A stretch of DNA of 64,000 bases from Pseudomonadota bacterium (GTDB lineage: Bacteria > Pseudomonadota > Gammaproteobacteria > Burkholderiales > Sulfuriferulaceae). The position numbers and the translations under genes were made by a program. This document shows positions 3,797 through 22,384 of the stretch, piece after piece. The DNA is taken from NCBI GenBank assembly GCA_021795395.1, contig JAJYPN010000011.1:1-64000 (forward strand), read 5' to 3'. How positions within the stretch are numbered: the first letter of the stretch is position 1; each line of letters starts with the position of its first letter. The notes under the pieces are model-generated. The model was not told the DNA's origin, searched no databases, and worked only from the letters and a program-made list of their open reading frames with translations.

Positions 3797-5134
3797 ATGA
3801 GAGACATCCTCATTTCCGTCATCGTCTTCGGCTCCTTGCCGTTCATCCTCAAACGCCCGTACATCGGGATTTTAATGTGGGTATGGATCAGCGTGATGAA
3901 TCCGCACCGGCTGGCTTATGGCTTTGCGTACAGTTTCCCCTTCGCCGAAATCATCGCGCTGACTACCCTCTTATCGACATTGTTCAGCAAAGCCCGCCGT
4001 TTCCCTGTCGTGCCGACGACCGTATTTTTAATGCTCTTCATGATCTGGATGAATATTACCTCTCTCTTTGCCATACATTTCGACCAGATTTATTTTCACT
4101 GGGCAACCATCATGAAAATACTATTGATGACACTGGTATCGATAGCAGTGATACATACCAGGGAACAGGTACGTTTATTCATCTGGGTGCTGGTGCTGTC
4201 GTTGGGGTTTTACGGAGTAAAGGGAGGGATTTTCACTCTGGCCAGCGGCGGAAATTTTCATGTATGGGGACCGGAAGGCTCATTCATTGAAGACAATAAT
4301 TCTCTGGCGCTGGCGTTGATCATGCTCATCCCGTTGATGCGCTACCTGCAACTTACCGAACCCAGCGTTTGGGTACGACGAGGTTTGACGGTAGCCATGC
4401 TGTTATGCGGATTTTCCGCTCTCGGCAGTTATTCACGCGGCGCCCTGATCGCCATTGCCGCAACTTCGGTGTTTTTATGGTTTAAAAGCCCCAGGAAGCT
4501 GGTCCTGGGTGTGGGCTTGACTATCGCTATCACATTGCTGGTTACTTTCATGCCTGCACAATGGGAAGAAAGAATGCATACCATCGATACCTATCAGCAG
4601 GACGCTTCTGCCATGGGCAGGATCAATGCCTGGCATATGGCCTGGAACCTGGCAATGGATAGACCGATCGTAGGAGGAGGATTCGAAATTTACGACAAGG
4701 GAGTGTTTGCGAAATACGCCCCCAATCCGCTCGATGTGCACGCCGCGCACAGCATCTATTTTCAGGTGCTGGGGGAACACGGATTTGTCGGTCTCGCGCT
4801 TTTTTTAATCCTCGGGATATTAACCTGGCGCAACGGCAGCTGGATCATTGCAAAATCACGAGACAGGCCTGATTTGCTGTGGGCATCCGATCTGGCAAAA
4901 ATGCTGCAGGTAAGCCAGATCGCGTACGCTACGGGCGGAGCTTTCCTGAGCCTCGCCTATTTCGACATGCCGTATTATGTGCTGGCGGCGATGCTGATTA
5001 CCAGAATCGTGGTCGAAAGGGAATTGCACACCGTCACCCGAACGGCCGCTATACTGGCACCAAAAAGGATCCTGAAAAATCGCCCCGCTTTTTCCAGAAA
5101 CCCGATACGGCCTCTCGATCAGTCCGGCAACTGA
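3797..5134 (+). CDS. Putative O-glycosylation ligase, exosortase-A-associated
   Basis: A 445-residue polytopic membrane protein of the O-antigen ligase/Wzy_C superfamily. The start MRDILISVIVFGSLPF, followed by KRPYIGILMW and SVMNPHRLAYGFAY, is the hallmark of the exosortase-A-associated ligase family. The conserved periplasmic loop carries VGGGFEIYD and then HSIYFQVLGEHGFVGL, which supplies the catalytic-type histidine and glutamate. Such proteins are proposed to attach glycan to PEP-CTERM proteins or to polymerise it. An AAGGA ribosome site lies 6 bases before the ATG. The FeeM-like gene follows on the same strand after 134 bp. Confidence 0.88.
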   Translation: MRDILISVIVFGSLPFILKRPYIGILMWVWISVMNPHRLAYGFAYSFPFAEIIALTTLLSTLFSKARRFPVVPTTVFLMLFMIWMNITSLFAIHFDQIYFHWATIMKILLMTLVSIAVIHTREQVRLFIWVLVLSLGFYGVKGGIFTLASGGNFHVWGPEGSFIEDNNSLALALIMLIPLMRYLQLTEPSVWVRRGLTVAMLLCGFSALGSYSRGALIAIAATSVFLWFKSPRKLVLGVGLTIAITLLVTFMPAQWEERMHTIDTYQQDASAMGRINAWHMAWNLAMDRPIVGGGFEIYDKGVFAKYAPNPLDVHAAHSIYFQVLGEHGFVGLALFLILGILTWRNGSWIIAKSRDRPDLLWASDLAKMLQVSQIAYATGGAFLSLAYFDMPYYVLAAMLITRIVVERELHTVTRTAAILAPKRILKNRPAFSRNPIRPLDQSGN

Positions 5135-5268: not shown

Positions 5269-6051
5269 ATGCCATTAATGATGAAGTATCCCGTCCAAGA
5301 ACATAACGAAGATGTGATTGCCTCATTTTTTGAAAAAACCAGCGGGAAAATGTCAACCTACAGCGTTGATTTTACTGAAGAAGACAGCCAGCAAGACATA
5401 GCAACCGAAAAGAGCGAATTCAGGATACGGCTGGCGAATACCGCCAATCGCAGAGGGGCTGCCAGTATCCTCATCAACAAGATGTACTCATGGCGCGGCT
5501 ATGGAAACGGGAACGTCTCCCAGATCAATAACCCCAACCGGATTACCTTGCTGGCCTCGGGGCCGGACGATGTAGCCATTGGTACCATTTCCATGGGACT
5601 GCATTCGTCGCTGGGCTTGTATGCCGATACCATGTATCACGATGAACTGGAACAGCTCCGGCGACAAGGCAAGATCGTGTGCGAATACAATCGCCTTGCC
5701 ATCGATCCCGAGATCAAATCCAAACGGGTGTTGGCGAGTCTTTTTCATATTGCTTATCTCTATCCCTATTATCTGTTCGGTCATACGGATGGGGTGCTCG
5801 AAGTCAATCCTCGACATGTCCGGTTTTACGAAAAAATGATGGGATTTACCCAGATCGGCCCTGAGCGTACCTGCCCGCGAGTAAATGCTCCCGCCGTTTT
5901 ATTGCATACCGATTTTTCTTACGCCAGGGAACAGATCAAAAAATGGGGCGGCCTCATGGATAAAGCACGTCATGAACGTTCGCTGTACCCCTATTTTTTT
6001 GATCCTGTTGATGAAGCGGGTATTCTTGGGCGTCTCAAGGCCATGACCTGA
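5269..6051 (+). CDS. FeeM-like N-acyl amino acid synthase (GNAT fold)
   Basis: A 260-residue protein resembling FeeM-type long-chain N-acyl amino acid synthases, which join an acyl chain from acyl-ACP to an amino acid. Visible family features are FRIRLANTANRRGAASILINKMY, CEYNRLAIDP in the acyl-CoA/ACP core, and the C-terminal pattern HTDGVLEVNPRHVRFYEKMMGF, matching the PRHVRFYE stretch of autoinducer-synthase-like GNATs. Related acyltransferases are recurrent in exosortase loci. It begins a tight set with the ThiF-like (22 bp) and nitroreductase-like (59 bp) genes. The acyl donor and amino acid are unknown. ATG codons also occur at residues 4 and 5. Confidence 0.75.
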   Translation: MPLMMKYPVQEHNEDVIASFFEKTSGKMSTYSVDFTEEDSQQDIATEKSEFRIRLANTANRRGAASILINKMYSWRGYGNGNVSQINNPNRITLLASGPDDVAIGTISMGLHSSLGLYADTMYHDELEQLRRQGKIVCEYNRLAIDPEIKSKRVLASLFHIAYLYPYYLFGHTDGVLEVNPRHVRFYEKMMGFTQIGPERTCPRVNAPAVLLHTDFSYAREQIKKWGGLMDKARHERSLYPYFFDPVDEAGILGRLKAMT

Positions 6052-6073
6052 TCTGTTTTGAAAAGGATAACCC

Positions 6074-6958
6074 ATGCCTCATGAGCAATTCTGTTATGAC
6101 AGCGCATTCTCCAGAAATATAGGATGGGTCACCCGGGATGAACAGGCCGTGCTGCAGGGCAAGCGCGTCGCCATTGCAGGCATGGGAGGTGTAGGAGGCG
6201 TACATTTGCTGACATTGGTACGTCTCGGCATAGGCGCTTTCAATATCGCCGATTTCGATGTCTTCGAAATTCAGAATTTCAACCGCCAGGTTGGGGCTAC
6301 CTTATCCGCACTGAATCAGCCCAAGGCGGAAACCCTGGCAAACATGGCGCTGGATATCAATCCCGACCTCGATATCAAGATTTTTTCCAATGGCATCGAT
6401 GAACAGAATCTGCCTGCGTTCCTGGCCGATACCGATCTATACGTGGACGGCTTGGATTTTTTTGCCTTTGATGCCCGCCAATCCACCTTCGCAGCGTGCG
6501 CGAAATATGGCATCCCTGCCATTACTGCAGCGCCTTTGGGCATGGGCGCGGCGCTGCTGATTTTTATGCCCGGGAAAATGAGTTTTGAGGAATATTTTAT
6601 TTGGGGTCGTCGCAGCGAAGATGAAAAAGCCTTGCGGTTTTTGTTGGGCCTGGCTCCCGCAGGCTTGCACTTCGGCTATCTGGCCGACCGCAGCGCGGTC
6701 AATCTGGCGGAACGTAGAGGACCTTCAACGATCATGGCGTGCCAGATGTGTGCCGGCATGACCGCCACGGAAGCACTGAAAATATTATTGAAACGCGGCA
6801 AGGTATTGTCCGCACCCCACAGCTTGCAATTCGATGCCTATCGCAACAAGATTTCCCGTTCCTGGAGACCGGGTGGCAATAATCATCTTCTACAAAAAAT
6901 TGCCCTGATGATAGGGAAAAGGCGACTTGCGAAACTTGCGCAATCTCCATCCGTTTAA
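6074..6958 (+). CDS. ThiF/MoeB/HesA (E1-like) adenylyltransferase
   Basis: A 294-residue Rossmann-fold adenylating enzyme. It has the nucleotide-binding loop AGMGGVGG (about residues 35-42), an acidic strand DFDVFEIQNFNRQ carrying the Arg finger, the lysine of QPKAETL and the VDGLD acidic motif, so adenylation residues appear intact. Only one CxxC pair is visible (CQMC, about residue 223), whereas MoeB/ThiF normally have two zinc-binding pairs, so it is probably a divergent subtype acting on something other than ThiS or MoaD. The ribosome site AAGGA is well placed. Its neighbours suggest activation of a carboxylate in an N-acyl amino acid-related pathway; that part is inference. Confidence 0.8.
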   Translation: MPHEQFCYDSAFSRNIGWVTRDEQAVLQGKRVAIAGMGGVGGVHLLTLVRLGIGAFNIADFDVFEIQNFNRQVGATLSALNQPKAETLANMALDINPDLDIKIFSNGIDEQNLPAFLADTDLYVDGLDFFAFDARQSTFAACAKYGIPAITAAPLGMGAALLIFMPGKMSFEEYFIWGRRSEDEKALRFLLGLAPAGLHFGYLADRSAVNLAERRGPSTIMACQMCAGMTATEALKILLKRGKVLSAPHSLQFDAYRNKISRSWRPGGNNHLLQKIALMIGKRRLAKLAQSPSV

Positions 6959-7017
6959 CGCGCTCGCAACGGATTCCGGATCGGCAAGCGTATTGCGACC
7001 GCATCGAGTAAAGGGCG

Positions 7018-8109
7018 ATGGCAAAAATAGATATTGAAAAAATTCTGGATCATGCACGGTGGGCGCCCAGCGGCGATAATACGCAATGCTGGCGGTTCGA
7101 AATCGTTAATGACAGCCATTTCGCAGTTCATGGATTCGATACCCGGAAAACCTGTGTCTACGACTACCAGGGCCGCGCCAGCCTGATTGCATTGGGTGCA
7201 CTGCTGGAAAATATAATCATCGCCGCCACTGAACAATCGCTGGCGGCAATAGTGCACTATCGCGAGGACAGCAAACCTGAACGACCGCTATTCGATGTAC
7301 ATTTAAGCCACGCCGCCGTTCAACCCAGCTCCCTGTTACCCTTCATTCGCAGCCGTTCCGTGCAAAGACGCCCCTACAGCACAGAAAATCTGACTATCGA
7401 TCAAATTCGGATATTGACGACATCTTTAGGCGATACCCATACGCTGCTTTGGTTTGACGGTTTATTCAACCGCATACGCATGGCTGGCATGCTATCCGCA
7501 GCCGGTAAACTGAGGTTGACCATACCGGAGGCATATGAAGTACATCGGCAGGTCATCGCCTGGAATGCGCGATTCAGTATCGATAAAGTACCCGATCAAG
7601 CCATAGGTCTCGATAGAATTTCGTTAAAATTGATGCGCCATGTTTTAGCCAGCTGGAAGCGTGTCGAATTTTTTAACACGTATTTGGCTGGCACTCTGAT
7701 ACCAAGAATTCAACTGGATATCATTCCGGCTTTACGCTGCGCAGGACATTTCATGATCAGCGCCCATTCGAGACCGGTGTCTGTAACGGATTATATTGCG
7801 GCAGGCAGAGCCGTTCAACGTTTCTGGCTGACCGCCACACAGCTCGGTCTCCAATTGCAACCGGAAATGAGCCCATTGATTTTCAGCAGTTATGCCAGCG
7901 AAGGAATGCAAATCTCATCAAAAGCCTCCGCACAAAAACAGGCAGATAACATCCTGCAAACCATGCGCCGTCTGATCGCGAATGACAGCAATTTCGATCG
8001 GATCGTGTTCATGGGCCGGGTCGGCAAGGCCGACCCGGCTGTCGCACGTTCGACACGGCGACCGCTCGCCCAATTAACAACCGTCGATAAATTTGACACC
8101 CCTCTCTAA
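7018..8109 (+). CDS. Nitroreductase-fold protein (MoeY/Acg-like)
   Basis: A 363-residue protein with the nitroreductase-family N-terminal pattern ILDHARWAPSGDNTQCWRF (FMN-binding ARxAPSxxNxQ), then GALLENIIIAA, and RSRSVQRRPYS in the middle. It is longer than simple nitroreductases (about 200 residues) and resembles the two-lobed Acg/MoeY type. In mycobacteria a ThiF-like and a nitroreductase-like domain are joined in one protein annotated MoeY; here they are adjacent separate genes, which supports a shared reaction. It presumably binds flavin and oxidises or reduces the product of the upstream enzymes. The PEP-CTERM gene follows, with its own promoter. Confidence 0.7.
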   Translation: MAKIDIEKILDHARWAPSGDNTQCWRFEIVNDSHFAVHGFDTRKTCVYDYQGRASLIALGALLENIIIAATEQSLAAIVHYREDSKPERPLFDVHLSHAAVQPSSLLPFIRSRSVQRRPYSTENLTIDQIRILTTSLGDTHTLLWFDGLFNRIRMAGMLSAAGKLRLTIPEAYEVHRQVIAWNARFSIDKVPDQAIGLDRISLKLMRHVLASWKRVEFFNTYLAGTLIPRIQLDIIPALRCAGHFMISAHSRPVSVTDYIAAGRAVQRFWLTATQLGLQLQPEMSPLIFSSYASEGMQISSKASAQKQADNILQTMRRLIANDSNFDRIVFMGRVGKADPAVARSTRRPLAQLTTVDKFDTPL

Positions 8110-8219: not shown

Positions 8220-9077
8220 ATGAACAAAAAGTCGATTTACTCCGCCCTGCTTGCCAGCGCAATGATTGCAGGCGTATATGCAACCCCTGCCTCGGCCAAT
8301 ATTGATATTTCCAACTGGCAACTCAATCTGCCCGGAATATTGGATACCGGTATCAACCAGCTGGCTTTTAACGGCGAAAGCTACGTCACCAACACGGCAA
8401 CCAGCACGCCCGGCATATTCACTTCTACCGACACCGGCGTATTCGATATCGCGCAATACAATAACGGCAACCCCTTGCACCTCAATGGCGGCCAACTGAC
8501 CGGCGTATTCCAGGCCACCGACCTGACCAACCTCACTGGCGGCACACCGTTTTACACATTCACTGGCGGCACATTCACCCTGTATTACAATCCTTCGCAG
8601 GTTTATGGCACGACTTCCGCCAACCTGTACGGCGCAGCAACCGGTACGGCGTTTGCGACCTTTAACATTGATGTCACCAATAACCCCAATACCGGGGGCG
8701 GCTTCCTGAATGCAAACGGCACTCCCACCGCCAATGGTACGGTCACGTTGTCCAGCACACCGCCGGCTACATTGACCAACCATCCTTTCCTGGATTCGAC
8801 GGGTACTCCTCTGTCGCCAAATATCCTGCTGGGTTTTGTCACCACCAACGCTTCGGAAGATACTACTGCCAGCCCAGGCAACTATACCATAGATCCCAAT
8901 CTGGTTGCAGCCTTGTCCGGTACTACCGGTACCATGAACAATACACCGACCAACTTGTTCATATCGAACGGCGGCCAATTCAAACTGCAGGATATTCCTG
9001 AGCCAGCTACCCTCGCGTTGATGGGTATCGGCCTGGTAGGGATTGCCGTTTCAATCCGCCGTAAGGATCGCAACTGA
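8220..9077 (+). CDS. PEP-CTERM sorting-domain protein
   Basis: A secreted protein of 285 residues. A signal peptide (MNKKSIYSALL...TPASA) precedes a low-complexity, Thr/Asn/Gly-rich, cysteine-poor body. The C-terminus has the classic exosortase sorting signal: PEPATLAL, a hydrophobic helix, and a basic tail RRKDRN. A GGAG ribosome site at 8211-8214 supports the ATG at 8220 rather than the upstream in-frame TTG at 8172. The protein should be exported, then cut and perhaps glycan-anchored by an exosortase outside this window. Its body resembles floc-associated PEP-CTERM proteins in style only. It has its own sigma-54 promoter and a strong terminator. Confidence 0.9.
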   Translation: MNKKSIYSALLASAMIAGVYATPASANIDISNWQLNLPGILDTGINQLAFNGESYVTNTATSTPGIFTSTDTGVFDIAQYNNGNPLHLNGGQLTGVFQATDLTNLTGGTPFYTFTGGTFTLYYNPSQVYGTTSANLYGAATGTAFATFNIDVTNNPNTGGGFLNANGTPTANGTVTLSSTPPATLTNHPFLDSTGTPLSPNILLGFVTTNASEDTTASPGNYTIDPNLVAALSGTTGTMNNTPTNLFISNGGQFKLQDIPEPATLALMGIGLVGIAVSIRRKDRN

Positions 9078-9187: not shown

Positions 9188-11977
9188 TTAATTTCCCAGG
9201 CTCTGCAACAAGGCTGCTGCATCGTCTGTTTGCGCAGCCAGCTTGTTCGAATCGAGCAATTGTTTCAAAATCTGGCGTGCCTGCGCCTTATTACCGGTTT
9301 TAGCCAGCGCTACGGCGTAATGGTAACGAATATCCGCTGCAGCAGGCACCATCGCAGCCGCTTTCCGTAAAAGCTTTACCCCTCCCGTCGCATCGCCTTC
9401 CTGCACCAATATCCAACCCAGGGTGTCCATGATCTGCGGATTGTTCGGGGAGTGCTGATAAGCCTGTTGCGCCATTTCCAAAGCGCGCGGATCTTTCATC
9501 TTCTGGTAAATCCACGCCACATTGTTCAGTACAGCCGGCGTACCTGGCGCTTTCCGCAACACGATCAGATACTGTTGCAATGCAGCGGCATCGTCGCCCC
9601 TGGTCAAATACATTTGAGCAAGATAGTTCCTTGCCACCAGATCATCGGGATGAACGTGCAGCCATTGCAATAAATTCCTGTCTGCAAGATTAGTCTTACC
9701 GCCGAGCATCAAGGCATTATGAAGCTTGATTTCAGCCACAGTGGTGGACGCCATGGACTGAGCCTTTTCATAAGCACTGGCGGCCTTATCATAACGCTTT
9801 TGAGCAAGATCGATGTCCCCCTCAAGAATATAAGCCTGAGGCGATTTAGGGTTTTGCTTTTGCTTATCGCGTACCAGGTCGTATGCACGGCCGTATTCTC
9901 CTGTCATGTCATAAACAGCTATCAATGCATTCAGCGCATCGGGGTAATCCGGCTGCAATGCCAGAGCGGTATTCAGCGAATTTTCCGCCGAAGGATAGGC
10001 TTTCGTCATCGCCTGTACGCTGCCCAAACGGAAAAAAGCCAATGATGAACGGGGTACCAATTGAGTGAGCGTTGTGTACGTGGCCACTGCCGCATCCAAT
10101 TGACCGACTGCGATCTGGGTATTGCCCAGCAAATCCATCGCTGCCGGGTCCTTGGGCGCAACCCGCAGTGCGTGTTGCGCCAAAGCGAGCGCAGCGGCGC
10201 TTTGATCATGCGCCAGCCGGTACCGCACCAGTTCTCGTACCGGCTGCATGTCTGCAGGATGTGCCTTGGCTGCTTTTTCCAGCCAGCCGACATAGTCGCT
10301 TTCCTGGCCGGTATGTTGCGCCATGCCAGCCAGATACATCATCGCCTGAAGATTGTTTTTATCCCTGGCCAATACCGATTCAAATTGCTGACGTGCCGCG
10401 GGTAAATCGTCTTCCTTCAGATAGAGCTGGCCGAGACTGAGCGCAGCGGGCAGATAACCGGGATCGACCGATAACGCCTTGCTGAAACTTTTTTGCGCGT
10501 CGGCCAGATCATTTTTACCGAGGTAAGCCGCGCCTTCCAGATTGTAAATCATAGGCAGATGCGGCCATTTTTGTTGCATTTTTTGCGTGGTACTCAAGGC
10601 ATGGTCGTAATCCTTGTTTCCCAGATAAGCCAGCACCAACGCGCTTTCCGCATCCGCATGCCCGGTATCCAGGGCTGCCGCCGCTTCCAGATCGGCAATC
10701 GCCTGACCGGATTGTCCGCTGGCTATTCTGCTCAAGCCCAGTTGAGTTCGCAATGATGCATTGTCCGGTTCGATCGCTACCTCTTTAGCCAGATATTGGG
10801 CAGCTTTATCGGCTTCGCCCGACTGAGCGTACGCCTCTACCGCCAATCCCAGTGCCGGCACATCCGTGCCCGACAATAAAGGGGATAAGGTCTTTAACGC
10901 CTCGGACGGCTGTTTCAATTTGAGCTGGGTTGCAGCCAACATTTTTCTGGCATAAACATTATCGGGAAATTCCTCAACAAAACGGGAAAAATCCTTTTCC
11001 GCACGTTCATCGTCCCCAAGCTGATAACTGATGCTGCCCCGCAGCAGGATGCTCGGCATGTGATCAGGTACGGCCTTCAACACCTGCAGGATATCATCCC
11101 TGGCCAACGCATATTTGCCCGTCTGGAAATGCAACATCGCCTGCAAATATTTTCCCATCAGGTTTTTCGGGTGGGTTTTCTCCAAGGTTTCGATCTGTAC
11201 TTTCGCCTCATCGACCTTTCCCATAGCCAGAGCCAGGGAAGCAATGTCGCCCATGGCTGCGGCATTTTTTGCGTCAATCTTGAGTACGTTTCGATATTCT
11301 GCCAACGCCTTTTCGTTTTGTGCCGAAGCCCGCAAAATATCGCCCTTCAATAACAAGGCTTCGACTCGATTGGGGTTTTCCGCAATCAGTTTATCCAGCA
11401 ATTGCAAAGCGCCGGTAGTGTCATTATTGATCGCGTCCAATTTGGCCATGCCCATGATGGCTCCGGCATCATGGGGGGATGCCGCCAAGGCGGCGGCAAA
11501 TGCCGCCTTCGCCGCATCTTTCTGATTCAGTCCCAGATAGGCATTGCCTTTCATGACCCATAGACCAGCCAACTCATCGCCTTGTAATGCTGCCGTTATG
11601 TGAACGTTATCAATTACTTTCTGAAATTCCCCCATGCCCAGATACGCCGAATCCAGCGCCAGCTCGATCGTGTTCGCATGCATTCCGGATTTCAAAGCCC
11701 GCTGTAATTCATCGACCGCTGCCGGATAATTTCCCTCCTTGTTGTATAAGGTACCAAGCAAATAACGAGCATCCGAATTGTTCGCATCCTTTTGCAAGGC
11801 GTTTTTGAGTTGGATCACGGCTGATTTGTCATCGCCCCTGGCATGATAGCGCTCGGCATCTTTCAAATAGTCCGCACTGGATTCGGATTGTCCACAACCG
11901 TGAAGCAACCCGCAGGATATCGTCAGCATCACCGCCCATGACAAGTACTTCACCTTCCAACCCTGCTGCGATTTCAT
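9188..11977 (-). CDS. prsT: PEP-CTERM system TPR-repeat lipoprotein (PrsT family)
   Basis: A protein of 929 residues from the chosen start. The frame opens at 12001, but the ATG at 11977 has a GGAGAAGG ribosome site just upstream and gives a standard lipoprotein signal (KYLSWAVMLTISCGLLHGC, lipobox cysteine). The rest is a long array of TPR units (motifs such as ADARYLLGTLYNKEG, PNNPQIMDTLGWILV). This matches the PEP-CTERM system TPR lipoprotein family in length and pattern. It probably acts at the outer membrane or periplasm in export or assembly of EPS and PEP-CTERM proteins. It is transcribed towards the PEP-CTERM gene and ends 57 bp from the shared terminator hairpin. Confidence 0.88.
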   Translation of the reverse strand: MKSQQGWKVKYLSWAVMLTISCGLLHGCGQSESSADYLKDAERYHARGDDKSAVIQLKNALQKDANNSDARYLLGTLYNKEGNYPAAVDELQRALKSGMHANTIELALDSAYLGMGEFQKVIDNVHITAALQGDELAGLWVMKGNAYLGLNQKDAAKAAFAAALAASPHDAGAIMGMAKLDAINNDTTGALQLLDKLIAENPNRVEALLLKGDILRASAQNEKALAEYRNVLKIDAKNAAAMGDIASLALAMGKVDEAKVQIETLEKTHPKNLMGKYLQAMLHFQTGKYALARDDILQVLKAVPDHMPSILLRGSISYQLGDDERAEKDFSRFVEEFPDNVYARKMLAATQLKLKQPSEALKTLSPLLSGTDVPALGLAVEAYAQSGEADKAAQYLAKEVAIEPDNASLRTQLGLSRIASGQSGQAIADLEAAAALDTGHADAESALVLAYLGNKDYDHALSTTQKMQQKWPHLPMIYNLEGAAYLGKNDLADAQKSFSKALSVDPGYLPAALSLGQLYLKEDDLPAARQQFESVLARDKNNLQAMMYLAGMAQHTGQESDYVGWLEKAAKAHPADMQPVRELVRYRLAHDQSAAALALAQHALRVAPKDPAAMDLLGNTQIAVGQLDAAVATYTTLTQLVPRSSLAFFRLGSVQAMTKAYPSAENSLNTALALQPDYPDALNALIAVYDMTGEYGRAYDLVRDKQKQNPKSPQAYILEGDIDLAQKRYDKAASAYEKAQSMASTTVAEIKLHNALMLGGKTNLADRNLLQWLHVHPDDLVARNYLAQMYLTRGDDAAALQQYLIVLRKAPGTPAVLNNVAWIYQKMKDPRALEMAQQAYQHSPNNPQIMDTLGWILVQEGDATGGVKLLRKAAAMVPAAADIRYHYAVALAKTGNKAQARQILKQLLDSNKLAAQTDDAAALLQSLGN

Positions 11978-12210
11978 ACCTTCTCCGAAATGTAATAACA
12001 CTATGCTTGATCCGAGTATATTATAAAAATTGACCCATATCGACTTTTCGCATTTGATCCGGAAACAAGCTGTACGGAACGATTCCTGCCATCCTGTATG
12101 CAGGATATGAATTCAGATTATTTCCGAGTCCTTGCGGATCGATCTCCCCTTGTATTCTGCTTCCAAACAACCGACAATACGCGCTATATTCGATCATTCT
12201 CATTCATCAA

Positions 12211-13246: not shown

Positions 13247-14521
13247 GTGCATCGACAGATTCAACTTTTGCGTACCCGCCTGCCCATGATCTCCTCTCGA
13301 CCCCAGCATAACGAACCACACCCATTTCCCGTCATCGACAATTGCCTGCATATTGGCGGATTAGCTTTGACCCGCCTTGCAGCGCGCATCGGTAAAACTC
13401 CCTTTTACGCGTACGACCGCCAGTTGCTGACCGACAAGGTGCGTGTCCTGCGTGATAAATTGCCGGCTGACGTACATCTGCATTATGCAATGAAAGCCAA
13501 CCCCATGCCCGCCGTAGTCCAGCATATGGCCAGTCTGGTAGACGGCCTGGACGTAGCCTCCGCGGTGGAAATGCATGTTGCGCTGGATACCGTCATGCCG
13601 GCAGCACGTATCAGTTTTGCAGGACCCGGAAAACAGGAAAGCGACCTGGCTTGCGCCATTGCCGCGGGTATCGTCATCAATCTGGAATCCGAACTGGAAA
13701 TGCAGCGTGCCGCGCGCATCGGTACGCAAATGGGCATGGTTCCTCAGGTAGCCGTCAGGGTAAATCCTGATTTCGAACTCAAATCTTCGGGCATGAAAAT
13801 GAGCGGCGGAGCCAAACAGTTCGGTATCGATGCCGAACAGGTACCCAATGTTTTAAAGCGTATGGCCGGTCTCGATCTGGCATTTATGGGTTTCCATATT
13901 TTCAGCGGATCACAGAATCTCAAGGCGGAATCGATCATGGATGCGCAGGAAAAATCCATTGCTCTGGCGCTTGATCTGGCCGAACATGCTCCCGCCCCCA
14001 TGCAATTGCTCAATATAGGCGGCGGATTCGGTATCCCTTATTTTCCAGGAGAACACGCTCTGGATGTCGATGCGATCGGCCAAAATCTGGCGAAATTATT
14101 ACATAACGCAAAAAGCAGATTAGCCGGCGCTCAGGTAATACTTGAACTGGGTCGCTATCTGGTAGGAGAAGCGGGCATTTACGTATGCCGGGTCATCGAC
14201 AGAAAAATATCCAGAGGGCAGATATTTTTAGTCGTGGATGGCGGCTTGCACCATCATCTGGCGGCATCGGGCAACTTTGGACAAGTCATCCGTAAAAACT
14301 ATCCCGTTGCCGTGGGCAATGCCATGCAGCACGACGCACTGGAAACCGTATCGGTGGTCGGCCCTTTATGCACGCCGCTGGATTTGCTTGCTGATAAAAT
14401 GCAATTACCGCATGCCGAAGCGGGGGATTTGATCGTCATTTTCCAATCGGGAGCGTACGGACTGAGCGCCAGCCCGACTCACTTTCTGAGCCAGGCTGCT
14501 GCTGCCGAAGTATTGGTATAA
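13247..14521 (+). CDS. PLP-dependent decarboxylase, exosortase-A-associated
   Basis: A 424-residue fold-type III decarboxylase of the diaminopimelate/ornithine type. The PLP lysine sits in HYAMKANPMP, followed by GFHIFSGSQN, the phosphate-binding NIGGGFGIPY, and ELGRYLVGEAG. The fit is to the subfamily found in exosortase-A EPS loci, where the substrate is not established; it may decarboxylate an amino acid that is then attached to the polymer. The start is uncertain: GTG at 13247, or ATG at 13286 (MISSRPQHN), and neither shows a good ribosome site. Confidence 0.85.
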   Translation: MHRQIQLLRTRLPMISSRPQHNEPHPFPVIDNCLHIGGLALTRLAARIGKTPFYAYDRQLLTDKVRVLRDKLPADVHLHYAMKANPMPAVVQHMASLVDGLDVASAVEMHVALDTVMPAARISFAGPGKQESDLACAIAAGIVINLESELEMQRAARIGTQMGMVPQVAVRVNPDFELKSSGMKMSGGAKQFGIDAEQVPNVLKRMAGLDLAFMGFHIFSGSQNLKAESIMDAQEKSIALALDLAEHAPAPMQLLNIGGGFGIPYFPGEHALDVDAIGQNLAKLLHNAKSRLAGAQVILELGRYLVGEAGIYVCRVIDRKISRGQIFLVVDGGLHHHLAASGNFGQVIRKNYPVAVGNAMQHDALETVSVVGPLCTPLDLLADKMQLPHAEAGDLIVIFQSGAYGLSASPTHFLSQAAAAEVLV

Positions 14522-19310: not shown

Positions 19311-21728
19311 GTGAGCATAAACCCCTCTCCTACCGTTACTGTGCGGCACCATGCCAGATCGGATCGCTACGCATCAAAATTCACCCATCTTTCCATTATT
19401 CTCGCGTGCATGAGCGCGATCGTATTCGGCCTGCTCCATTATCCGCTGAATGCGCCTGTATTGGGATTGATATTGCTCGGCTATATGGCGTTATTGTGGC
19501 GCTATCCCAAAGTCTGGTTATTCTGCCTGCCGGCAGTATTGCCTTTGGCAAATCTGTCACCCTGGAGCGGCTGGTTATACTTTGAAGAAATGGATTTTTT
19601 CGTTATGGCCACGGTAATCATGGGTTACTGGAAGCTGATGCCGCTACGCGCTACCCATGAATTGTCATTGGGCGGAACCGTTCTGTTACTTCTGCTTAGT
19701 CTTTCCTACTGCATCAGTACTTATATGGGCTTAACCCCCTATCACAGTCCCGATCTGAATTCATTCAACAATTACTTGAGCCCTTTCAATAGCTTGCGTA
19801 TATTGAAGCCGTTTATGTGGTCGTTGTTGTTATTGCCTTTATTGCGCCGCAGCGTGTCTGCCGAACTACTGCAACGTTTATTTGTTCCCGGAATGTTGAC
19901 GGGACTGTGCGGCGTAGTCCTGGTTTCAATCTGGGAGCGCCTGACATTTCCGGGATTATTGAATTTTGCCAGCGATTATCGGATTACCGCTTCCTTTCCT
20001 GAAATGCATACCGGAGGTGCAGCGCTGGACGCCTATTTATCGCTAACTCTTCCTTTTGCGCTGGCCTGGCTGCTGCAGCAACGCAAACGATCGGCTATCA
20101 TTGCTGCCGGCATTTTGCTTGCCGGCGGTACGTATGCCGCGCTGGTGACATTCTCTCGTGGCTTATATCTTGCTTATGCCGTATCTGTCATCATACTCGG
20201 CATATTCCTGACGGCCAAAGCCGCTTACCGGTTCTTTAATCTTCGAAAAACCCTGATGTTCGCTACGCTGCTCACAGTGGCGACCTGGCTGCTTGTCGAG
20301 ACCTTCGGACATGGGGGCTACCGCGGGCTATCGGCTGCCCTTGCATTATTCGGTGCTGCCTTTTATCTGGGCGATCCCCTTCATCGTGCCCATCGTCTCA
20401 AACTCGCCCTGACGGCCGGTGTCAGTCTGATGTGCATGGTTATCCTGTTTTTGCTGGCTGTAACGAATAAGGGAGCGTATCTGGCTTTCGGAATGGCCGC
20501 TTTCGTATTTTTGACGGGTTTTTTGCTGGAAGAAACCAGAACTGAGAAAAAGTCGGCTAGATTATTTGCGTATACCGGTTTTATCGCCATGGCGATCGCC
20601 AGTCCAGCCGTTAATTGGCATTGGGGAGGAACTGCCGCTGCCGATTATGCCGTCATGTCGTCACTGTTTGCCGTTGCCCTACTGATGTTAAACCACCGTC
20701 TTCCCGAACCGCTATGGATATGGAGCAAAAATAGCTCGGTGGTACTGATTTTCGGGCTTATTCTATTGGGAACAGTGATTCCGATTTTTGGAAACACGTA
20801 CATGACCGGACGTTTTGAAACCTCCGATGCCGACATTCATACCCGTGCCGAACATTGGGAAAACACGTTGGGAATGATGAATGGCAACCTGAAAACGGAA
20901 TTGTTCGGGATGGGACTCGGGCGCTTTCCGGAAACCTATTACTGGAAGAATAATGCGCACGATATCCCCGGCAGTTACCGTTTTTTCTCTGAAAACGGTA
21001 ACAACTTTTTACGCCTGTCTGCAGCGCGATATCAAGCCGGATATGGAGAATACCTGCGTATGGGCGAACGGATTTCCATCCAGCCCTTTCATGATTACAC
21101 GTTATCCGTCGCGGCGCGTACGATATTCCCCGATACTCGGCTGCATACGGAAATATGCGAAAAATACCTGCTCTATTTCTCGCGCTGCATCGAGGCCAAT
21201 ATTGTATTGATTCCGGACAATACCTGGCATCGTTACATGGCACGCTTCAACTCGGGCACCATGGGCAGCGAACCCTGGTACAAACGGCCTACGGTACAAT
21301 TTTCGTTGGCCGATGATCGATCAGGCGGCCTTGTGGATATCGGCAGCGCCAGCCTCGTCGACAAATCCGGCCACAATCTGCTCCGCAACCCACATTTCGC
21401 ATCGCTCATGGATCACTGGTTTTTCACCAGCGATCACTACCATTTACCCTGGCACGCGAAAGACCTTGCGCTCAATGTCTATTTCGACCAAGGCTTATTC
21501 GGGCTCATCGTTTTCATCCTGCTGTATCTCGATGCCTTGATTTTATTACTTAAAAAAGCTCAGCGCGGCGAACTGTTTTCCGCCACGCTGCTGGCTTCCT
21601 TGCTCGGTTTTTTTATGGTAGGGCTGTTTGACAGTATTTTGGACTTTCCCCGTTTGTCATTATTATATTATCTCCTTTTGTATATCGCTCTGCTTCGTCC
21701 CGTTCCCACCTTATCGCGCAAACATTAA
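19311..21728 (+). CDS. Wzy/O-antigen-ligase-like protein with a large extra-membrane insertion
   Basis: An 805-residue polytopic membrane protein starting at GTG. About 14 hydrophobic segments and the Wzy_C landmarks are present: a GMGLGRF motif near residue 533 and, much later, WHAKDLALNVYFDQGLFGL near 714-732. In usual family members these two are some 20-40 residues apart; here about 170 residues, largely polar and beta-rich in appearance, are inserted between them. The likely function is EPS polymerisation or ligation at the periplasmic face. The stop overlaps the convergent TPR gene by 4 bp. The start codon has only a weak ribosome site. Confidence 0.75.
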   Translation: MSINPSPTVTVRHHARSDRYASKFTHLSIILACMSAIVFGLLHYPLNAPVLGLILLGYMALLWRYPKVWLFCLPAVLPLANLSPWSGWLYFEEMDFFVMATVIMGYWKLMPLRATHELSLGGTVLLLLLSLSYCISTYMGLTPYHSPDLNSFNNYLSPFNSLRILKPFMWSLLLLPLLRRSVSAELLQRLFVPGMLTGLCGVVLVSIWERLTFPGLLNFASDYRITASFPEMHTGGAALDAYLSLTLPFALAWLLQQRKRSAIIAAGILLAGGTYAALVTFSRGLYLAYAVSVIILGIFLTAKAAYRFFNLRKTLMFATLLTVATWLLVETFGHGGYRGLSAALALFGAAFYLGDPLHRAHRLKLALTAGVSLMCMVILFLLAVTNKGAYLAFGMAAFVFLTGFLLEETRTEKKSARLFAYTGFIAMAIASPAVNWHWGGTAAADYAVMSSLFAVALLMLNHRLPEPLWIWSKNSSVVLIFGLILLGTVIPIFGNTYMTGRFETSDADIHTRAEHWENTLGMMNGNLKTELFGMGLGRFPETYYWKNNAHDIPGSYRFFSENGNNFLRLSAARYQAGYGEYLRMGERISIQPFHDYTLSVAARTIFPDTRLHTEICEKYLLYFSRCIEANIVLIPDNTWHRYMARFNSGTMGSEPWYKRPTVQFSLADDRSGGLVDIGSASLVDKSGHNLLRNPHFASLMDHWFFTSDHYHLPWHAKDLALNVYFDQGLFGLIVFILLYLDALILLLKKAQRGELFSATLLASLLGFFMVGLFDSILDFPRLSLLYYLLLYIALLRPVPTLSRKH

Positions 21729-22384
21729 TTTACCGGACTCCATTTACCTATTTTCTCCAGTTTTTTGCGCAAACCAGGCAAAGGGAACCCGGCGGCATAG
21801 GCTTTCTGTGCATAGGCCAACGATTTGTCGTAATCTTTCAAATTAAAATACAGCAAACCTTCGTTGTACAAGATATTTGCATTTTCAGGGTCGAGCTTTT
21901 CCGCTTGGGCATCCTGTTCCAGCGCTGCATTGTCCTTATGCTTTTGATAAAGATAATTGGCGTAAACCATATGAATCAAGGCATCCGATGGCGCAAAGGC
22001 GAACGCTCTCTCGAAATAGCAGCCGACTGTAAAATGCGCGCCGTTCGGACGATCGGTTTTCTCCTTGAGAGCCAGGTTGGCCATGGAATTCAGCGCACGT
22101 GGATGATTGGGAAAAGCGCGCAGCACATAATCCAGATCACCGCCTATCGAACCAGAATCGCCATGCGACAACATCTGGACAGCGGGCGAAAAGTGATATT
22201 GCTCCACTATCTGCAAATTATGTCCCTTATTGTCTGGATCATTGTAATCGAACGGACCAAACTGTCCGGGACTGGGTGTGACCGGCGGGCACGCCCCATC
22301 GGCAGCCAACGCTGTATTTGCCCAAGCGGATGCGCATCCTAACAAAACACACATTACCATTAATTTAGTTCTCAATTTTTCCAT
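21725..22384 (-). CDS. Secreted TPR-repeat protein of EPS locus
   Basis: A 219-residue protein with a signal peptide (MEKLRTKLMVMCVLLG...ALAAD), a mature N-terminus rich in Pro/Gly (FGPFDYNDPDNKG) and three or so TPR units (HPRALNSMANLAL, ALIHMVYANYLYQ, ENANILYNEGLLYF). The FGPFDY segment recurs in small TPR proteins next to EPS genes. It may scaffold polymerisation or export in the periplasm. It is convergent with, and overlaps by 4 bp, the Wzy-like gene. Confidence 0.7.
   Translation of the reverse strand: MEKLRTKLMVMCVLLGCASAWANTALAADGACPPVTPSPGQFGPFDYNDPDNKGHNLQIVEQYHFSPAVQMLSHGDSGSIGGDLDYVLRAFPNHPRALNSMANLALKEKTDRPNGAHFTVGCYFERAFAFAPSDALIHMVYANYLYQKHKDNAALEQDAQAEKLDPENANILYNEGLLYFNLKDYDKSLAYAQKAYAAGFPLPGLRKKLEKIGKWSPVN

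Follow-up and report, generated by a model that had tools for sequence, protein, structure and literature searches.

An oxazolone synthetase, OxzA-OxzB from Pseudoalteromonas rubra, was reportedly described by de Rond, Asay and Moore in 2021, and Craig, Cherry and Brady are said to have linked N-acyl amino acid synthases (NAS) to the PEP-CTERM/exosortase system in 2011, a NAS-exosortase neighbourhood as we also find it here. The DNA analysed (the window) is a 64-kb stretch, positions 1 to 64,000 of contig JAJYPN010000011.1 from a Sulfuriferulaceae bacterium (assembly GCA_021795395.1), and it carries a cassette of three genes encoding a NAS, a ThiF-type enzyme and a nitroreductase-superfamily (NTR) protein. 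In the TyzA-TyzB-TyzC pathway from Mycobacterium tuberculosis (Rv2336/Rv2338c/Rv2337c) these functions are three separate proteins, namely a FeeM-fold acyltransferase, a ThiF cyclase and a single-domain Acg-like flavin oxidase; TyzA attaches an acyl group to L-Tyr/L-Phe, TyzB uses ATP for ring closure and TyzC performs the desaturation with O2, leading to C12:0-tyrazolone (PMC10404671). TrzA and TrzS (Rv1356c/Rv1355c) are described as tryptazolone makers (PMC12856293), and producers of N-acyl dehydrotyrosines and dehydrophenylalanines, one of them a Massilia, carry NAS, ThiF and nitroreductase genes together (PMC12479983). The cassette in the window consists of the following genes:

5269..6051, plus strand: putative N-acyl amino acid synthase (FeeM/TyzA/NasY type), 260 aa, PF21926
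6074..6958, plus strand: putative ThiF-type ATP-dependent cyclase (TyzB-like), 294 aa, PF00899 and NF006077
7018..8109, plus strand: putative NTR flavin mononucleotide (FMN) oxidase/desaturase (TyzC-like, Acg fold), 363 aa, PF00881

As the same three families make acyl-oxazolones or accompany N-acyl dehydrotyrosines, we consider it quite likely that the cassette is a new representative of a known pathway, the acyl-oxazolone type of the Oxz/Tyz/Trz kind. An earlier note on this DNA, made from the sequence alone, had described three codirectional genes with gaps of 22 bp (NAS-ThiF) and 59 bp (ThiF-NTR), which is correct, and its assignment to the FeeM, ThiF and nitroreductase types is borne out by Pfam and NCBIfam matches. 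The idea that an acyl amino acid is built, activated and oxidised fits the published homologous trios (PMC10404671, PMC12856293, PMC12479983), but it was put forward without recognising that this pathway had already been described. Similarly, the ThiF/nitroreductase fusion quoted there as MoeY is indeed carried by Rv1355c, which however is now TrzS of the known tryptazolone pathway.

In M. tuberculosis tyzA is located on the opposite strand with mmpL9 nearby (PMC10404671), whereas the window shows three codirectional genes amid genes of the exosortase A (XrtA) system in a Gram-negative bacterium. OxzA-OxzB also combines NAS, ThiF and flavin oxidase, but OxzB is a ThiF-oxidase fusion (as related in PMC10404671 and PMC12856293), and TrzA-TrzS has the same three domains with TrzS being fused (PMC12856293), whereas ThiF and oxidase are separate genes in the window. 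On the Rv1355c/TrzS family model NF005901 the window ThiF and NTR reach 64 and 112 bits, with a whole-protein cut-off of 476. Like the window, the Massilia kyonggiensis and Thalassotalea clusters have separate NAS, ThiF and nitroreductase genes in an operon-like order, while the words exosortase and PEP-CTERM are absent from the main text describing them (PMC12479983); several Massilia loci in our own collection are arranged as in the window (e.g. L116, L128, L146, L150). The FDO-A23 oxidase subcluster already includes Betaproteobacteria (PMC10404671). The same three domains are also present in PRK14852 (NF011425, 989 aa, 'hypothetical protein'), but as one polypeptide from Nitratidesulfovibrio, and proteins 1–3 of the window match successive segments of this model (E=4e-12, 1e-76 and 3e-13), with proteins 2 and 3 also matching NF011424/PRK14851 (679 aa). 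These matches are below the whole-protein cut-offs because each window protein is a single domain. From the gene order in the window, a fusion described below and the distances between the genes in other genomes, the three functions are clustered or fused as in the Oxz/Tyz pathways.

Protein 1 is matched by the Pfam family FeeM (PF21926, E=2.3e-50), and a profile of 34 FeeM-type sequences including it matched one solved structure, FeeM 2G0B (E=1.7e-22), so that by both comparisons it is a NAS of the FeeM/TyzA type. Eleven columns are invariant among the 34 sequences, including Y73, G77, E139, D146, E178, H183 and Y187. According to the profile alignment E139, D146, H183 and Y187 are common to FeeM, whereas E178, invariant among the relatives of protein 1, is a serine in FeeM. 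A lack of acyl-transfer residues, which the earlier note regarded as refuting the cassette, is thus not indicated by the alignment.

Protein 2 is matched by Pfam ThiF (PF00899, E=1e-40) and reaches 433 bits on NF006077 (PRK08223, 'hypothetical protein', cut-off 266), while the MoeB and ThiF models listed give about 60–85 bits. The elements of the nucleotide site, R14, D128, the GxGGxGG loop, NxNRQ and K84, are all present, as had been proposed. R14 and D128 are invariant in 32/32 aligned sequences, and D128 aligns with MoeB D130, through which the protein can be regarded as a ThiF-type cyclase with the ATP-site aspartate; D128 would then be the equivalent of D217 in the ATP site of TrzS. The protein has one CxxC motif as stated before, C223/C226; of the 32 sequences, 30 retain C226 and 25 retain C223. 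In E. coli ThiF, Cys169 and Cys172 are zinc ligands and Cys184 is the catalytic residue, and these align to Glu172, Phe175 and Leu187 of protein 2. The cysteines expected for a MoeB/ThiF-type sulfur-carrier enzyme are therefore missing at the zinc pair compared and at the Cys184 position, and C223/C226 lie off the ThiF zinc positions and are not half of this site. The PF00899 fold as such would also suit an activator of sulfur carriers like MoeB or ThiF, or a TOMM-like peptide system with the nitroreductase as azoline oxidase, the combination of ThiF and nitroreductase being found in pathways to peptide heterocycles too. We regard both as highly improbable: the genome has its own MoeB (contig C23) and TcdA-like ThiF (contig C49), which together with the non-cysteine positions leads us to reject a MoeB/ThiF function, a TOMM-type system, for whose precursor peptide no search was made, is disfavoured by the sole YcaO match of the genome being on contig C25 away from the cassette, and a NAS is found in all ThiF-positive genomes of the order analysed below.

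Protein 3 is matched by Pfam Nitroreductase (PF00881, E=1e-9) and, below the cut-offs, by NF047509 (Acg/Rv3131 family, E=3e-33) and NF005901 (Rv1355c family, E=2e-32). Its 40-sequence profile has the Acg homologue 2YMV as best solved relative (E=8e-19), and an AlphaFold model (pLDDT 94.7, pTM 0.93) searched with Foldseek also gave 2YMV as the best predicted fold match (E=2.9e-13, TM 0.69/0.76). By profile and by fold the protein is hence of the Acg-like flavin oxidase type as in the Oxz/Tyz pathways, and 2YMV is also reported as the nearest structure to the oxidase part of TrzS (PMC12856293). Its earlier description as two-lobed is only roughly right, as the model shows one Acg-like chain.

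To follow the three families across genomes we used 200 genomes from the order of the window and 274 genomes from its class, three of them (G000, G107, G224) being present in both samples. A genome was called ThiF-positive with NF006077 over its cut-off, across which the scores in the order drop from 333 to 135 bits, and NAS-positive in the order with FeeM of at least 90 bits or TIGR03694 over its cut-off. The FeeM threshold was set to 90 bits because weak PF21926 matches (<48 bits) in many genomes resemble another acyltransferase family; at the cut-off of Pfam itself FeeM is found in 71/200 genomes. The ThiF is present in 35/200 genomes of the order and 26/274 of the class. All 35 ThiF-positive genomes of the order have a NAS, compared to 13/165 ThiF-negative ones (p=1.4e-28), and the NAS nearest to ThiF is on the same contig in 33/35, within 10 kb in 32/35 and within 400 bp in 24/35. 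For the class, counting PF21926 over the Pfam cut-off only, the values are 21/26 against 33/248. We also took a census, by six-frame profile searches, of named loci, the best 80 of 539 confirmed ones (593 candidates), a collection biased to close relatives: in these 80 the NTR is fused to ThiF (11 loci) or located within 4 kb in 74, and a NAS is found within 4 kb in 44, a number that rises to 46 when the entire fetched stretch is counted. The three families thus occur together elsewhere, as the earlier note had asked for, and the co-occurrence and distance data exclude chance as an explanation of the cassette. A universal three-gene unit is not upheld, as 6 of these 80 loci (L135, L149, L151, L158, L169 and L171, the last four with little downstream DNA) gave no NTR within 4 kb and some of the 20 cassette loci introduced below are also without a detected one. 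Ten open reading frames (ORFs) near ThiF genes without detected NTR, which were chosen by length and may not all be real genes, showed no oxidase family; two of them (L195, L199) are LolA-like. Further ThiF relatives are found in contigs of metagenome-assembled genomes labelled, as given for these contigs, Nitrospirae (L165, with FeeM, ThiF and NTR), Bryobacterales (L151) and Polarisedimenticolaceae (L170).

The same samples show that this ThiF clade occurs almost only together with XrtA. With XrtA defined as TIGR03109 over its cut-off, the order has it in 33/35 ThiF-positive and 18/165 ThiF-negative genomes (p=2e-22), and the class in 24/26 and 27/248 (p=3e-18). Both samples pooled without the genome of the window give 54/58 against 45/412, and the four ThiF-positive but XrtA-negative genomes are G098, G249, G286 and G406. 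In a test stratified by family, covering the 19 families that are represented by two or more genomes and contain the ThiF (the single-genome families of G289, G301 and G318 drop out), XrtA is present in 30/32 ThiF-positive genomes, while 200,000 within-family permutations averaged 19 and never exceeded 28 (p<=5e-6; Cochran-Mantel-Haenszel over families p=1.5e-9). Removal of the window's own family leaves 29/31 (permutation p<=5e-6, Cochran-Mantel-Haenszel p=1.1e-8). XrtA is on the ThiF contig in 13 of the 33 cases, in 11 of these about 10–37 kb apart. The converse is weaker, as ThiF is absent from 18/51 XrtA-positive genomes of the order. We did not find an oxazolone-type ThiF as a near-constant companion of exosortase A in print, but the likeliest source (Craig et al. 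2011) was outside our search and priority is not established.

In the window itself the cassette is flanked by an O-ligase gene on the 5' side and a PEP-CTERM protein gene on the 3' side, and the neighbouring XrtA-system genes are:

3797..5134, plus strand: putative O-glycosylation ligase, exosortase A system-associated (TIGR03097, 531 bits, cut-off 188)
8220..9077, plus strand: PEP-CTERM surface protein, PepA-like (PF07589, E=1.7e-7; NF033554, 74.6 bits, slightly below the cut-off of 80)
9188..12001, minus strand: XrtA/PEP-CTERM system TPR protein PrsT (TIGR02917, 829 bits)
13247..14521, plus strand: pyridoxal phosphate (PLP)-dependent decarboxylase, exosortase A system-associated (TIGR03099, 625 bits)

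No XrtA match at E<=0.001 was obtained within the window. The claim that the cassette lies inside an exosortase exopolysaccharide (EPS) locus therefore holds for these satellite genes (TIGR03097, the PEP-CTERM protein, TIGR02917, TIGR03099) but not for XrtA, and the label 'exosortase locus' refers to the satellite genes because xrtA sits on another contig. By co-occurrence and by the genes found at its loci the cassette behaves as an accessory of the XrtA/PEP-CTERM system, in the window through the satellite genes only. One might also assume that it hitch-hikes as an independent secondary-metabolite cluster in or near EPS islands with no role in the XrtA system. Its patchy distribution, with the cassette in 1/6 genomes of the window's genus and the other five without the ThiF, would agree with this, as would the 18/51 XrtA-positive genomes of the order without ThiF, the position of xrtA in the window's genome and the function of homologous pathways in mycobacteria, which are not known to carry XrtA. 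We nevertheless think such hitch-hiking unlikely, as neither the frequency of XrtA with ThiF (33/35 and 24/26) nor the permutation within families, also without the family of the window, would be expected from it, and a three-domain fusion is found amid XrtA-system genes in another phylum.

This fusion, WP_011787321.1 (989 aa), is encoded on plasmid pDVUL01 (NC_008741.1) of Nitratidesulfovibrio vulgaris DP4 (L214:14068-17037) and annotated only as ThiF family adenylyltransferase. It reaches 2397 bits on NF011425, over the cut-off, and carries FeeM at 43–198, ThiF at 316–565 and the nitroreductase from 609, in the same order as in the window. The neighbours annotated as XrtA-system genes include FemAB-like, deacetylase, TIGR03016, ATPase, autokinase, chain-length and TIGR03013 genes, there are PEP-CTERM genes in addition, and about 8–11 kb downstream an ATP-binding cassette (ABC) permease, an ATPase and a periplasmic adaptor follow; the 31 kb viewed around the fusion gene do not include an exosortase gene. 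The presence of the three domains in one chain supports their sequential action, and their location among XrtA-system genes repeats the XrtA setting far from the Pseudomonadota.

In the phylogenetic tree of ThiF the window sequence pairs with that of a metagenome-assembled proteobacterium (L093, 76% identity, support 100/92), next to L094, Ferrovum myxofaciens (L117), L101 and L205 in a set of six rows with only 80/89 support. In a published comparison of four Ferrovum strains, the PEP-CTERM system is reported for the F. myxofaciens strains only (PMC4886054). The type of NAS beside ThiF switches repeatedly on the tree, with 13 changes for TIGR03694 of which at least 6 are forced by well-supported branches, so that ThiF appears to accompany either NAS family; these counts are to be read with the long branches of L199, L196 and L207, an unsettled bootstrap and rows without NAS that may reflect short stretches.

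For a comparison within genomes we took 20 ThiF-positive genomes and analysed the DNA flanking the cassette ThiF to about 10 kb in either direction, and likewise that around another ThiF-family gene, the latter being any other match in the same genome without individual annotation. The pairs were hand-chosen from the 59 distinct ThiF-positive genomes (35 of the order and 26 of the class, two shared; G000 left out) for room around both genes, three cassette stretches (12.8, 13.3 and 18.9 kb) and one control (16.7 kb) are shorter, and two of the loci (L206, L213) are the same DNA as the named loci L134 and L153. One or more of 11 XrtA-locus markers, with score thresholds chosen by us and seven seeds coming from named loci, was found in 13/20 cassette and 0/20 control loci (p=6e-6). 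A PEP-CTERM-type C-terminus, according to a pattern of our own with a background of 3/20, was present in 15/20 against 3/20 (p=2e-4), and a NAS in 17/20 against 0/20 (p=1e-8). Of the 80 best-ranking loci among the 539 named ones, an XrtA marker is found in 43 (36/73 without the seed loci), a PEP-CTERM-type ORF in 61, an ABC permease in 17, its ATPase in 9 and a LolA-like gene in one, with the neighbour families named by NCBIfam on representatives. A MacB/DevC-type ABC permease or its ATPase accompanies 7/20 cassette and 0/20 control loci (p=0.004), and any exporter-type gene (ABC or LolA-like) is present in 11/20, or 9/18 without the seed loci L195 and L199, against 0/20 (p=3e-4).

MacB/DevC/LolC-type exporter genes lie near the cassette ThiF in L148 (7877-9768), L134, L200-L202, L204-L206 and L208 and in none of the 20 controls; a possible function is export of the lipid. 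In the PEP-CTERM/EPS region of Rubrivivax gelatinosus, with counterparts in Thauera, ABC-transporter and ThiF genes are reported side by side (PMC3684757). A plasmid of Bdellovibrio sp. HAGR004 (L215:6789-10852) has a ThiF relative with 50% identity right after an ABC ATPase, a permease and a hypothetical gene, and neither NAS nor nitroreductase is annotated in the 11.5 kb, a stretch ending at the start of the record. LolA-like genes (PF17131) adjoin ThiF at L195:8649-9608 and L199:10627-11487, two loci without detected nitroreductase, and the seeds derived from them also match the cassette loci L196 and L209. An RND/MMPL exporter, as a parallel to mmpL9, was not found among 6 ORFs beside them. 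The ThiF of L195 is located in the C-terminal half of a 686-aa frame (9461-11518) whose first ~380 residues have no Pfam match and may be an upstream extension of the frame or an unknown domain.

Based on the homologues, the acyl-oxazolone pathway of the window would most likely proceed as follows: gene 1 would transfer the fatty acyl group from an acyl carrier protein or coenzyme A thioester to the amino group of a probably aromatic amino acid, gene 2 would activate the carboxylate with ATP leading to closure of the oxazolone (azlactone) ring, and gene 3 would use FMN and O2 to introduce the 2,3 double bond into the amino acid part, either ahead of ring closure or following it. This product, or the ring-opened N-acyl dehydro-amino acid, would probably be a lipid of the cell envelope associated with the XrtA exopolysaccharide/PEP-CTERM system. 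The earlier note had suggested a lipid signal or a cell-surface modification under common regulation with EPS, and either may apply; the envelope role, which we infer from the linkage, becomes more likely because of the genomic association with XrtA, and the exporter neighbours and a phenotype of Methylomonas LW13 also point to it: disruption of the PEP-CTERM-associated NAS there abolishes a polysaccharide band, which is restored by complementation (PMC11072679).

Several observations weigh against this assignment. The XrtA of the genome over the cut-off is on contig C46, whereas the window is contig C16 of a 57-contig assembly, and association with XrtA is not function. No NAS was found in 34 of the best 80 of 539 loci, although these are fetched stretches and not whole genomes, and no NTR within about 10 kb in 5/20 cassette loci (L195, L196, L199, L207, L211), so that the desaturation may not be universal. 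In LW13 the NAS gene is not shown beside a ThiF in the published account, and growth of the NAS mutants in the gradient syringe was lost as well (PMC11072679), for which reason the phenotype may be one of growth. There is no product on record for the organism of the window, and neither amino acid nor acyl chain can be predicted from these data. Finally, producers of kyonggic, thalassotalic and stieleriacine compounds have the three genes but no oxazolone was reported from them (PMC12479983), and the isolated end product may accordingly be the open dehydro-amino acid. This leads to a different view, which we hold possible if not very probable, namely that the end product is a linear N-acyl-2,3-dehydrotyrosine or -dehydrophenylalanine of the kyonggic acid type, with ThiF activating only transiently or the ring always being hydrolysed. 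Such compounds are indeed made by Massilia kyonggiensis and Thalassotalea with NAS, ThiF and nitroreductase (PMC12479983), and oxazolone rings are opened in acid and alcohols (PMC12856293). However, loss of the ring on extraction explains the missing oxazolone equally well, and ATP-dependent ring closure is documented for TyzB as well as for TrzS (PMC10404671, PMC12856293).

What acyl-oxazolones do physiologically is regarded as a major question still to be resolved (PMC12856293), and an explanation for the NAS in exosortase systems was not found in the literature searched. With the tie between ThiF and exosortase A in two genome samples both questions become testable in culturable environmental hosts. 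We would expect carriers such as Massilia, Thauera, Methylomonas, Nitrosospira and Ferrovum to contain oxazolones or N-acyl dehydro-amino acids, and removal of the ThiF or oxidase gene to affect their EPS or surface proteins. What may be new here is the tightness of the tie between the ThiF clade and exosortase A, the chemistry of the pathway being already known. A more speculative idea, to which we give little probability, is that the oxazolone serves as an activated acyl donor in Gram-negatives, with the azlactone putting an N-acyl (dehydro)aminoacyl group on the exopolysaccharide or on PEP-CTERM proteins; if true, NAS-ThiF(-NTR) would be a surface-lipidation module of the XrtA system. The 4/20 cassette loci that have NAS and ThiF but no detected nitroreductase and the ABC exporter genes in 7/20 are compatible with this idea without showing it.

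Two further regions of the window lie among or beside its EPS genes. ORFs of 805 aa (19311-21728, plus strand) and 219 aa (21725-22384, minus strand) have no NCBIfam match at E 1e-20. On the minus strand at 16365-18847 genes for a TviC-like epimerase and a TviB-like UDP-N-acetylglucosamine dehydrogenase were detected (488 and 511 bits, in each case under the equivalog cut-off), which suggests a uronic-acid amino sugar in the exopolysaccharide of the window.

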